Origin: a virus
IMG/VR virus record: IMGVR_UViG_3300007541_000135
Location: 1-28,753 of that record
Strand: one strand, 5' to 3'
DNA length: 28,753 nt
The notes beneath the pieces are model-generated. The model saw only the letters and a program-made list of their open reading frames with translations, searched no databases and was not told where the DNA came from. The translations under genes were made by a program, and so were the position numbers. Shown here one piece after another: positions 3,182 through 18,157 of this stretch (positions are counted from its first letter, which is position 1; the number at the start of each line of letters is the position of its first letter).

Positions 3182-4039
3182 ATGGCTAATAACACAACCA
3201 TCAATAGCGAACTGTTTACAAACCTTCTTGCTGAAGCCCAGTTTGCTATGTATGAGAACAGTATCGCAAGACAAATTGTGACACCGTTCAGTTTCCCAGC
3301 AAACGCTGGAAAAACACTATCAGTGCCTGTATATTCCGCAGTAACTGCCGCTTCATTAACTGAAGGTTCGGCACCATCAGCGGCTGACACTAACACTACA
3401 TCTGTATCAATCAACTTAGGTGAAGTTGGTACATACTTCCAAGTAACTGACTTCTTGAGAGATTCCGCACAGCGTGATGTAATCGCTGATTTAGGTGCTC
3501 AAGCAGGTAGAGCGATTGCTGAAAAAATGGACAACGATGTATTCGCATTGTTCAACTCTTTCAGTGCTTCTGTAGGAACTGAAGACAGCCCAGTCACTGT
3601 TGACAACATCCTTACTGCTGTAGCGACACTTCGCCAAGCAAAGGTTATCGGTCCGTTAGCGTGTGTGGTGGGTCCAAGACAAGCACTTCAACTTAAGAAG
3701 GAACTTGCTGGAACTGGCGGCACAACAGCACTAACAGCCAACGCACTTGGTAATGAGGCACTTCGTGCTTACTACATCGGCACACTTGCTGGATGTTCAG
3801 TATACGAAAGTTCATTAGTTAAATCAGACTTAGACACTGATACTGACACTGAACTTAATATGGTAGGTGCGGTATTTGCTCCAACAGCCATTGGACACGC
3901 TATCAGAGGCGGTGTTGTAATGGAAGAGCAAAGACAAGCGGCGGCTCGTGCTACAGACATTATGATTTCTGTAGTTAAAGGCGAAGCAATCCTTCAAAAC
4001 AGCCACGGTGTTAAAATCGTAGGTTCCGCTACTGACTAA
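3182..4039 (+). CDS. Major capsid protein
   Basis: The 285-residue protein is the main shell subunit, presumably with the HK97 fold. Evidence is its place after the scaffold, its size, its Ala/Ser/Thr/Val-rich composition with few Cys, and family-like segments: a helical N-terminus (SELFTNLLAEAQFAMYENS), an E-loop-like hydrophobic stretch (TLSVPVYSAVTAASLTEGS), then the spine helix (QAGRAIAEKMDNDVFALFNS). A strong ribosome site (AAAGGAG) precedes the ATG. It uses optimal codons and AGT/GAC choices like its neighbours. A T4-late-like box overlaps its stop codon and an intrinsic terminator lies 60 bases on, closing the scaffold-capsid unit. No sign of a prohead-protease cleavage domain. Confidence 0.85.
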   Translation: MANNTTINSELFTNLLAEAQFAMYENSIARQIVTPFSFPANAGKTLSVPVYSAVTAASLTEGSAPSAADTNTTSVSINLGEVGTYFQVTDFLRDSAQRDVIADLGAQAGRAIAEKMDNDVFALFNSFSASVGTEDSPVTVDNILTAVATLRQAKVIGPLACVVGPRQALQLKKELAGTGGTTALTANALGNEALRAYYIGTLAGCSVYESSLVKSDLDTDTDTELNMVGAVFAPTAIGHAIRGGVVMEEQRQAAARATDIMISVVKGEAILQNSHGVKIVGSATD

Positions 4040-4045
4040 TAAATA
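4038..4045 (+). promoter_or_regulatory. T4-late-like box AATAAATA at the end of the capsid gene
   Basis: The box overlaps the TAA of the capsid gene and is followed only by the terminator at 4101-4126, with no gene between. It would produce a short RNA of about 75 bases, or it may be a chance run of stop-like codons. Confidence is lower than for boxes placed before genes. Confidence 0.4.
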
Positions 4046-4051
4046 GTTTAG

Positions 4052-4126
4052 AGCGAGGGTAGGGATTAGGTTACTGACATTACCTAAAACCAAAATAGAA
4101 GGGGGTGTGGAAACATACCCCCTTTT
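4052..4126 (+). ncRNA. Possible short RNA between capsid gene and next unit
   Basis: If the AATAAATA at 4038 is a promoter, the transcript would run from about 4052 to the T-run at 4126. It contains a small 5-bp hairpin (TAGGT/ACCTA, about 4068-4088) and ends in a strong GC-rich terminator. There is no open frame of note. It could equally be just the 3' untranslated end of the capsid message. Confidence 0.3.
4101..4126 (+). terminator. Intrinsic terminator after the capsid gene
   Basis: GGGGGTGTG at 4101-4109 pairs with CATACCCCC at 4114-4122 (nine pairs, one G-T) around the loop GAAA, followed by TTTT. This is a textbook Rho-independent terminator and separates the head unit from the tail unit. 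Confidence 0.85.
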
Positions 4127-4159
4127 ATCGTCTTTATCCATACCATTATCTTAAATTCA

Positions 4160-4167
4160 CATAAATA
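4160..4167 (+). promoter_or_regulatory. T4-late-like promoter box CATAAATA before the connector/tail operon
   Basis: It lies 34 bases after the capsid terminator and 56 bases before the ATG at 4224, in a gap with no gene. It would start the long tail unit that runs with overlapping genes to 15763. Confidence 0.6.
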
Positions 4168-16501: not shown

Positions 16502-16786
16502 ATGGACACGAGGGTTTTAGAAGAGTATTGCGAAATCACACGCGATAAAGATAACGAACAGGTTATATTAAGTGTAACAGTCAAGCACCAACCAAAACCG
16601 TGCGAAGATTGTGGTGATGTTGTGACTAATAGGATAGTACACACAAGAGCGTGCCAACTACCTTTCAAACATTGGCGTAAACAATGTGGCACTTGCCGGC
16701 GATTTGAAAACCCATTAAACGGCAAATATGAGTTCGAAACCAGTCATCAAGTCCATAATGTCCTTGTAAAACAGCGTAAAGCATAA
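16502..16786 (+). CDS. Small zinc-ribbon-like protein
   Basis: A 94-residue protein with two CxxC pairs, Cys34-x2-Cys37 (CEDC) and Cys62-x2-Cys65 (CGTC), spaced about 24 residues apart with His and Arg around them, which is a zinc-binding ribbon layout. Residues 1-30 are acidic then strand-like. Such small zinc ribbons often bind nucleic acid or RNA polymerase. The ATG at 16502 lacks a ribosome site and lies 5 bases after a T4-late-like box. A later start is possible but would lose little. No neighbouring gene reveals its partner. Confidence 0.65.
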   Translation: MDTRVLEEYCEITRDKDNEQVILSVTVKHQPKPCEDCGDVVTNRIVHTRACQLPFKHWRKQCGTCRRFENPLNGKYEFETSHQVHNVLVKQRKA

Positions 16787-16789
16787 ATA
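16782..16789 (+). promoter_or_regulatory. T4-late-like promoter box CATAAATA before a small RNA
   Basis: The box overlaps the stop of the zinc-ribbon gene and is followed by no gene. Instead the folded element at 16796-16907 begins about 6 bases after it, exactly where a transcript would start, and ends in a terminator hairpin. Confidence 0.6.
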
Positions 16790-16795
16790 CTAGTG

Positions 16796-16907
16796 TAAGA
16801 GTTTGGTGAGGCTGTCACTTCACAATCATCAACTCCTTAAACTTAATGCCATTTTGTTTTATACTGATGACATAAACTCTTATAGAAAGCCCCGCAATGG
16901 GGCTTTC
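16796..16907 (+). ncRNA. Predicted small structured RNA with its own promoter and terminator
   Basis: About 112 bases between the CATAAATA box and a terminator. TAAGAGTTT at 16796-16804 pairs perfectly with AAACTCTTA at 16874-16882 (9 bp), closing a multi-branched core. Inside, GTGA/TCAC (about 16807-16819) and TCATCA with TGATGA (about 16826-16872) can form two smaller stems. The hairpin 16885-16907 then ends the RNA. It does not fit a tRNA: there is no T-arm or 7-bp acceptor pattern. There is no meaningful open frame. Compare the similar box-plus-terminator pair at 4038-4126. Confidence 0.55.
16885..16907 (+). terminator. Terminator-type hairpin after the small RNA
   Basis: GAAAGCCCC at 16885-16893 pairs with GGGGCTTTC at 16899-16907 (9 perfect pairs, loop GCAAT). 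The T-run is weak (CACCTTATT), but the stem itself ends in three A-T pairs. It may work on both strands. Another promoter box follows at 16917. Confidence 0.7.
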
Positions 16908-16916
16908 ACCTTATTC

Positions 16917-16975: not shown

Positions 16976-17257
16976 ATGCTAAATAATAGTATAACAACAA
17001 AGGCATTGAAGTTGAAAGTAACACACCAACAAAGAATTGAAAACTGGGCACAACAGCAGAGGCAGTATCGCCAGGATGCTCTTGTGACACAGTGGCAACG
17101 CAATTTGGGCATTGGCGACTTCCAAAAAAAACTCACAGGCACGGAATGGGATAATTACAAACACTACAGAAAAACCCAACGACAAACACAAAGATTACAG
17201 GCACAATTAGCAAGGCTGGAACGCAAGGCACTATTCACAGACGATGCCAAGTCTTAA
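16976..17257 (+). CDS. Small Gln/Arg-rich helical protein, unknown
   Basis: A 93-residue basic protein dominated by Gln, Arg, Lys and Leu (for example QRIENWAQQQRQYRQDALVT, QTQRLQAQLARLERKALF), almost certainly helical and coiled-coil-forming. No clear ribosome site precedes the ATG, and a TAAATA box lies in the first codons, so an internal start near residue 10-12 is possible. It might bind DNA or RNA. No family recognised. It is followed by a long structured gap. Confidence 0.5.
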   Translation: MLNNSITTKALKLKVTHQQRIENWAQQQRQYRQDALVTQWQRNLGIGDFQKKLTGTEWDNYKHYRKTQRQTQRLQAQLARLERKALFTDDAKS

Positions 17258-17461
17258 TAAGTGGCGGTTAAAACTGGGGTTGTAATATGACGGCTAATGA
17301 CCCCCACGCTCCACGGTTGCTGAAAGGCTGTGGAACAAGCGGAGCCGCGAGATTTCTTGCTGTATTCAAGGCAACTTATACAGTGAAGTTGAGAGTTTCA
17401 ATACATTCGTCTCTTGTTAAATCTTCTTCAGTCGTGTGCGATATCCAAGACACACACTAGG

Positions 17462-17542
17462 CGGCTATGCGACTACACGCATTCTTAACAACAAACAAAC
17501 AATGTTTGGTATTTTTCTTGTTTGTGTGTAGTCACATAGCCG
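17462..17542 (+). repeat. Long inverted repeat (19-base arms) in the structured gap
   Basis: The arm 17462-17480 (CGGCTATGCGACTACACGC) pairs with 17524-17542 (GTGTGTAGTCACATAGCCG): 17 Watson-Crick pairs, one G-T and one mismatch. The 43-base loop is AT-rich and itself contains small repeats of AAACAA and TTGTTT. It is the strongest fold I see in the window and no coding frame crosses it. Confidence 0.8.
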
Positions 17543-17702
17543 TCGTATGACTTCAAATCCAAGTGCTAAAGACTTTCTCTTAAAACAAATAAGAAAAAAA
17601 GATGAAGTGGAGTTTGAGCGATAGCGAATGACTCCACGGAATAGACTTAACGCAAGTTAAGTCTTTGAATGCCCCTAAATTAACCACAGGTTAAATTATC
17701 TT

Positions 17703-17710
17703 GATAAATA
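17703..17710 (+). promoter_or_regulatory. T4-late-like promoter box GATAAATA before an HNH-like gene
   Basis: It lies 24 bases before the ATG at 17735 with an AAAGAGG ribosome site in between. Confidence 0.6.
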
Positions 17711-17734
17711 CTACTATAACAAAGAGGTATTGAT

Positions 17735-18157
17735 ATGTATACGGAATTGAGAAAACAACTACCGCGAACTTGGCGAATATGGCATCGTATGAATTGGCGT
17801 TGTGAGAGATACGACTTGTTCCCTTGTTATGAAGATGTGGTGATATGCGACAAATGGAATAGACAGGTATCAGGTGAAGATGGATTCATCAACTTTGTGA
17901 CTGACATAGGTGATTTGGACACCAATGAATTGTTCATATATAGACTGAACTGTTTCAAAGGATGGACACCCAAAAACACAGCAACCAAAACTTACAGAGA
18001 CTTTACCGCACACAATAGATGGCACAAGGATCCTGCCAACAAATACAAAATTATAGCCAAAGCAAATGGCATAAGAAACGCAACACTACGAACTAGATTG
18101 GAAAATGGATGGAGTCTCAAGAGAGCAATTACACAGCCAGTAAAACAGCGTGGCTAA
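17735..18157 (+). CDS. HNH-endonuclease-like protein (degenerate), C-terminal DNA-binding repeat
   Basis: A 140-residue protein resembling phage HNH/AP2-type homing nucleases: RIWHRMNWRCERY near the start, then VVICDKWN, GFINFVTDIG, and a Y-R-L-N-C-F-K-G-W-T-P-K-N segment that parallels the family's R-x-D-N-x-x-x-Y-x-P-x-N, followed by ATKTYRDFTAHNR. The expected catalytic His-Asn-His set is not complete. Residues 108-135 (IIAKANGIRNATLRTRLENG-WSLKRAITQP) look like the small helical DNA-binding repeat that follows such nucleases. It may be a nuclease or a DNA-binding relic. It has its own T4-late-like box, and a small gene overlaps its end. Confidence 0.55.
   Translation: MYTELRKQLPRTWRIWHRMNWRCERYDLFPCYEDVVICDKWNRQVSGEDGFINFVTDIGDLDTNELFIYRLNCFKGWTPKNTATKTYRDFTAHNRWHKDPANKYKIIAKANGIRNATLRTRLENGWSLKRAITQPVKQRG

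Follow-up and report, generated by a model that had tools for sequence, protein, structure and literature searches.

Late promoters of the T4 type carry a box that reads TATAAATA in phage T4 and NATAAATA in cyanophage S-PM2 (PMC2984593). The latter phage also produces CfrI, an antisense transcript of ~225 nt that is tied to psbA (PMC2984593). Other structured RNAs, such as manA, wcaG, and PhotoRC-II, stem mostly from marine metagenomes and phages and serve as leaders for genes of metabolism or photosynthesis (PMC2864571). C-rich anti-Shine-Dalgarno motifs occur in small RNAs that act by base pairing, such as the RsaE and LhrC types. Ogr of phage P2 is a zinc-finger late activator, a small protein with four cysteines whose gene stands last in the tail operon, in phages that use special late promoters. 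To our knowledge, few structured phage RNAs have deep covariation support and nearly all of these come from cultured phages. The present analysis concerns a small RNA family that was previously undescribed, of which the structure is clearly kept by evolution and the function is a hypothesis only. It was found in the window, i.e. the whole 28.7-kb stretch of DNA analysed (IMG/VR virus record IMGVR_UViG_3300007541_000135, positions 1 to 28,753).

Architecture and genomic setting of the element

The window encodes portal, scaffold, capsid, tape-measure, and J-like tail proteins. Its portal protein is 43-49% identical to those of the pelagiphages HTVC202P/111P/026P/112P and of phage DSL-LC06, in none of which the small RNA was found, apart from one weak match (L102; E = 0.07). 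All members of the RNA family come from metagenomic contigs, the host of which has not been identified, and the phages that carry it form a deep clade of uncultivated siphophages of ~30 kb. The capsid protein of the window was matched in 13 of the 22 member contigs (26-87% identity among the longer matches), and the contigs without a match were mostly short fragments. A single origin of the family is possible, as it is compatible with the trees, which do not prove it. The gene order in this clade consists of the gene for the tail J-like protein, genes for small proteins, those for a holin-like and a zinc-ribbon protein, and then the RNA (Table 1). Directly downstream of the RNA, no gene was shared across the members compared.

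Table 1. Features of the element and its surroundings, numbered along the window
Feature	Position	Strand	Basis or remark
Zinc-ribbon protein gene, 94 aa (CxxC...HWRxxCxxC)	16502-16786	+	Partner candidate
Candidate upstream promoter element CC	16753-16754	+	31 nt before the start of TAAATA; C counts at RNA promoters
Promoter box CATAAATA	16782-16789	+	T4-late-like; read directly from the sequence; overlaps the TAA stop of the upstream gene (16784-16786)
Predicted transcription start (G)	16795	+	Inferred from the conserved offset, not mapped
P1 closing stem, 5' strand TAAGAGTTT	16796-16804	+	Swap test, covariation counts
P2 hairpin GUGAGG[CUGUCA]CUUCAC	16806-16823	+	Swap test, pair counts, loop conservation; loop CUGUCA at 16812-16817
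P3 arm	16826-16870	+	Minimum free energy fold; arms flanking UGCCAU pass the swap test; UCAUCA (16826-16831) pairs with UGAUGA (16865-16870), inner AAAC/GUUU; apical motif UGCCAU at 16847-16852
ACUCC motif	16832-16836	+	Motif counts versus shuffles; complementary to Shine-Dalgarno GGAGU
P1 closing stem, 3' strand AAACTCTTA	16874-16882	+	Swap test, covariation counts
Terminator hairpin, 9 bp	16885-16907	+	Sequence, fold, similar hairpins in other members; GAAAGCCCC (16885-16893) pairs with GGGGCTTTC (16899-16907), loop GCAAT (RNA GCAAU)

A preliminary description of the locus had claimed a promoter-like box followed by a 112-base element (16782-16907 together), closed by a perfect 9-bp stem, with inner stems, a 9-bp terminator hairpin, and no gene. 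The length held, as 16796-16907 comprises 112 bases, and so did the closing stem (P1), which was read directly and to which a G16795-U16883 wobble adds a tenth pair. The inner hairpins are present in the sequence and in the fold, no ORF of at least 50 aa overlaps the element on either strand, and a conserved reading frame through the element, which was named as grounds for refutation, was not seen. The terminator hairpin held too, but needs a correction, in that the U-tract following it is weak (CUUUCACCUU) and the hairpin went unflagged in a generic scan for terminators. In relatives, the same kind of hairpin is followed by ...UUUCNUCUUUU, and a terminator-like hairpin occurred downstream of P1 in the members inspected. 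The RNA fold of 16796-16912 amounted to -36.1 kcal/mol versus -20.3 +/- 3.4 kcal/mol for shuffled sequences, none of 200 shuffles being as stable. This difference corresponds to z = -4.7.

A cis-acting leader that controls the downstream gene in the manner of a riboswitch would likewise have conserved loops within a closing stem and a terminator behind it, P1 and the terminator then acting as expression platform. This alternative is considered very unlikely, as a conserved class of downstream genes is lacking, several members have about 100 nt extra between P1 and the terminator, and no anti-terminator pairing was seen, albeit without a systematic search. Equally remote is a packaging RNA like the pRNA of phi29. 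In its favour, the element is a small phage RNA that is structured and has a promoter of its own, and in one relative (G014) it precedes a gene block leading to the terminase. Against it, the HTVC isolates and DSL-LC06 have homologous terminase, portal, and capsid genes and lack the RNA, which is therefore dispensable for a packaging machinery of this type; nor does the short form contain a perfectly complementary loop pair.

Two further observations concern the surroundings. The region from the RNA to the terminase genes in the relatives G014 and G002, representing their early regions, encodes HNH-like, small-terminase-like, and unknown small proteins only; no replication genes were recognised by eye in the translated ORFs, without an HMM test. 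In the window itself, a long noncoding stretch (17257-17735) with an imperfect inverted repeat (GGCGGCTATGCGACTACAC / GTGTAGTCACATAGCCGTC) may be a packaging or regulatory site.

Conservation of the fold in distant relatives

The family was first revealed by a 25-bp match, which could be due to chance, and reliance was therefore placed on protein-based retrieval. A first retrieval, in which loci were fetched by means of a 140-aa upstream protein and without the RNA sequence, yielded the same layout with different stems at the syntenic place (L085/L086, L088, L089/L090, and L091). Further members were added by pattern scans, whereby matches within genes and without P1 were discarded; the median pairwise identity among the 24 distinct members was 55%. 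A second retrieval made use of an unrelated neighbour, a 110-aa protein, to avoid motif bias. Of the 74 loci obtained, 51 contained a zinc-ribbon ORF with its end at a TAAATA box; 38 of these 51 were distinct, and eight of the 38 were already known. One locus (L190) was excluded as not RNA-like, and the set used for conservation consisted of 42 distinct members fetched by neighbouring proteins alone.

In this protein-fetched set, the loop CUGUCA occurred in 34 of the 42 members (1.2 in shuffles), [U/A]GCCAU in 38 (2.8 in shuffles), and ACUCC in 22 (5.0 in shuffles). Similarly, ACUCC was present in 13 of the 24 members versus 2.4 in shuffles, none of 2000 shuffles scoring as high, which leaves about half of the members without this motif. 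Members lacking CUGUCA or UGCCAU exist as well (L174, L193, L197, and L231), and AGCCAU variants, for instance in L092 and L232, match AUGGCU. A CUU following the loop, at first taken for a conserved motif, turned out to be an artefact of the first pattern and is covarying stem sequence in the protein-fetched set.

The stem sequences differ between phages while the pairing persists. Each 5' strand was paired with the 3' strands of other members in a swap test of 10,000 permutations, and for P1, P2, and P3 none of these was as good as the true partners, with 24 as well as with 42 members. Across 23 sequences, pairing in the P1 arms reached 99.4%, with 81 double-changed cells and a covariation score of 1.29 versus 0.29; these arms were chosen by eye, which inflates the pair counts and leaves the swap test unaffected. 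P2 was 94.1% paired, with a covariation score of 0.60 versus 0.15. In addition, the covariance search in related phages that had been proposed as a check succeeded. A model built on ten other phages, with the window left out and relying mainly on P2 pairs, placed the window RNA at 16784-16877 (E = 1.7e-8), with nothing else below 0.1, and all stems covary. The comparison supports the fold, its conservation, the invariant promoter box, and the place after the tail, holin, and zinc-ribbon genes, and the conserved RNA is very likely real.

Longer members (L126, L147, L193, L199, L200, L203, L206, and others) have a 3' hairpin, P4, downstream of P1. Its loop CUGACA is complementary to the P2 loop of the same member and its arms covary (swap test 0/10,000; 14 members).

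Several other identities were considered and rejected. No tRNA was found by ARAGORN, a hammerhead-like reading of CUGAUGA...GAAA fails as stem I cannot form, a host origin is not supported by a pattern scan of genome contigs (two matches, both without the P1 stem), and matches at the DNA level among phage isolates were chance matches only. Rfam 15 gave no match above the gathering threshold for the window and 16 member loci, and for the window none even with permissive settings.

The TAAATA box and the zinc-ribbon neighbour

The TAAATA box was exact in 24 of the 24 members, despite the upstream stop codon lying in many registers (about -114 to +28 relative to the box); one of the pattern scans did not demand TAAATA, and all true members from that scan still carry it. 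The base preceding the box was A or C in all 24 members, and the box was followed by T at offset 10 in 22 and by a purine at offset 11 in all 24. This T-purine step was also enriched at other intergenic boxes that are not linked to the RNA (25/45 versus 21/82; p = 0.001). Furthermore, TAAATA was the most strand-asymmetric intergenic hexamer across the kin (33 versus 6), ranking above AAGGAG; in RNA-less pelagiphage isolates this was not the case (24 versus 29). Upstream of the box, C occurred at -31 in 19/24 and at -30 in 15/24 RNA promoters, whereas CC within +-1 of this place was weaker elsewhere (17/49 of the intergenic, 6/42 of the coding, and 7/49 of the opposite-strand boxes). The evidence for a C-rich element at -31 is suggestive only; such an element may be an activator site.

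As to the promoter claimed in the preliminary description, CATAAATA behaves as one across the clade, as judged by sequence comparison only, and the RNA is likely transcribed from its own TAAATA box. The interpretation as a small RNA is supported as a whole by comparison, although no transcript has been observed. The box resembles a T4-type late promoter, as CATAAATA fits NATAAATA, a -10 box occurs without a required -35 box, a purine is found about six nt downstream (by sequence, the start being unmapped), and late genes follow. Late expression is inferred from this promoter type and the gene position. In contrast with T4-type promoters, those considered here belong to siphophages of ~30 kb, possibly have an extra CC at -31, and come without an identified gp55/gp33/gp45 homologue; indeed, neither such a homologue nor a late sigma factor was recognised by eye among the early genes of two kin genomes, without an exhaustive HMM search.

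The same box occurs elsewhere in these phages. At four places without any other known feature (G014 26405, L121 5654 (oriented), G003 18622, and G002 19458), TAAATA is immediately followed by a 5' leader hairpin of the GACAGGACAACTCCATGTTGTCTGTC type. At position 1035 of G002 (L177), it precedes a T-run and a hairpin of roughly 10 bp, the loop of which contains ACTCCTT, possibly constituting a mini small RNA.

Alternatively, the element could be the 3'-UTR and terminator of the late (zinc-ribbon) mRNA, formed by read-through or cut from that mRNA. It lies directly after the last late gene, has a terminator at its end, and in several members the TAA of TAAATA is the stop codon. Yet, the box is invariant while the stop registers vary, the same box occurs upstream of genes clade-wide, and the start-site step is conserved, so that this explanation is unlikely.

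A homologue of the zinc-ribbon gene immediately precedes the RNA in 16 of the 25 members (blastp). The family pattern is CxxC...HWRxxCxxC..NPxTGKF, with C34, C37, P54, C62, and C65 as conserved columns in 14 aligned copies. No match to the protein was found among 50,697 phage records, nor any Pfam or PHROGs match above threshold. A single-sequence structure model was poor; an alignment-based model reached a pLDDT of 72, and a fold search with it returned no PDB match and only uncharacterised phage proteins as structural kin. The zinc-ribbon protein of the window resembles P2 Ogr only in its cysteine pattern and in being encoded where the late operon ends; it has no HMM or fold match.

The main rival explanation is that the RNA is a structural cofactor of this adjacent protein, which remains possible. 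The protein would bind the CUGUCA and UGCCAU loops, which have UGNCA in common, and the ribonucleoprotein would help to control late genes, lyse the cell, or assemble virions. The zinc-ribbon gene being directly upstream in most members, the invariance of short hairpin loops on freely drifting stems, which is the usual pattern of protein-bound RNA, and the absence of a single mRNA target speak for it. Against it, L092 and L125 have no zinc-ribbon gene immediately upstream, the PDB fold search gave no RNA-binding relative, and the adjacency may merely mark the end of the late operon.

Possible mode of action and comparison with known RNAs

The best explanation of the element is a small late RNA that stands on its own and probably acts in trans, its most likely mechanism, a hypothesis only, being pairing with translation start regions. 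This reading as a whole may as well be wrong as right. The features of an independent small RNA are met, namely a promoter and a terminator of its own (both judged only by comparing sequences), the absence of an ORF, and a conserved fold. The element would encode a noncoding RNA of about 115-120 nt here and up to about 250 nt in relatives, the transcript of which would begin at ~16795 from a T4-late-like TAAATA promoter and end at the terminator hairpin, P1 enclosing hairpin P2 (loop CUGUCA), arm P3 (loop UGCCAU), and the ACUCC stretch. It would be produced late in infection and act in trans. The latter is inferred from the absence of a conserved gene downstream and is rated as probable. Through GCCAU, the RNA would pair with AUGGC and, through ACUCC, with the Shine-Dalgarno sequence of translation start regions.

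This pairing is plausible but a hypothesis only, to which low confidence is given. The motif [U/A]GCCAU is complementary to AUGGC followed by the variable third base of the Ala codon (A/U), and ATGGCT/ATGGCA are the commonest gene starts in the clade phages. CUCC occurred 7-9 nt after UGCCAU in 7 of 23 members versus 0.36 in shuffles, which is close to the GGAG-to-ATG spacing in the clade phages (peak at 6-8 nt); this spacing and the complementarity to gene starts suggest start pairing. In the window copy, ACUCC lies 5' of UGCCAU, an arrangement that would not allow both motifs to pair continuously with the same start region. The idea of one conserved target was rejected, as no gene was consistently the best target across phages; the capsid gene leads weakly (best quartile in 5/7 phages). 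Both the start-region idea and that of kissing loops rest on multiple exploratory comparisons made post hoc and are hypotheses only.

A second candidate small RNA is located at 4037-4160 of the window, downstream of the capsid gene, where a TAAATA box lies at the stop codon of that gene. It comprises a hairpin (4066-4087) with the loop ..UUACUGACAUUA.., followed by a terminator-like hairpin before the next gene, and is also present downstream of the capsid gene in L018, L020, L028, L030, L038, and L184 (G001). It contains UGACA, the complement of the UGUCA loop in the main RNA. A bolder, unlikely reading is that of a new class of late riboregulators, in which the GCCAU loop and the anti-Shine-Dalgarno motif would mask or tune translation starts, with a kissing link of CUGUCA with the CUGACA loop (UGUCA/UGACA) of the post-capsid late RNA or, in longer members, of their own 3' hairpin.

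Whatever its function, the RNA is retained by distant relatives, the capsids of which are as little as about 26% identical, along with the zinc-ribbon protein and a shared late-type promoter. This set represents a defined, testable entry point to the control of late expression in uncultivated aquatic phages. Compared with known RNAs, the window RNA is, like CfrI, a noncoding RNA encoded by a phage, CfrI being that of a marine phage; unlike CfrI, it is antisense to no gene and has a conserved fold. It shares with manA, wcaG, and PhotoRC-II that it is a structured RNA in metagenomic or phage sequence, but it ends in a terminator, has no conserved downstream gene, and lacks an Rfam match. Finally, it differs from the RsaE and LhrC types in the absence of sequence kinship, the reversed order of elements in the window copy, and the lack of a consistent target, whereas it resembles them in its exposed CUCC motif and its complementarity to start regions.
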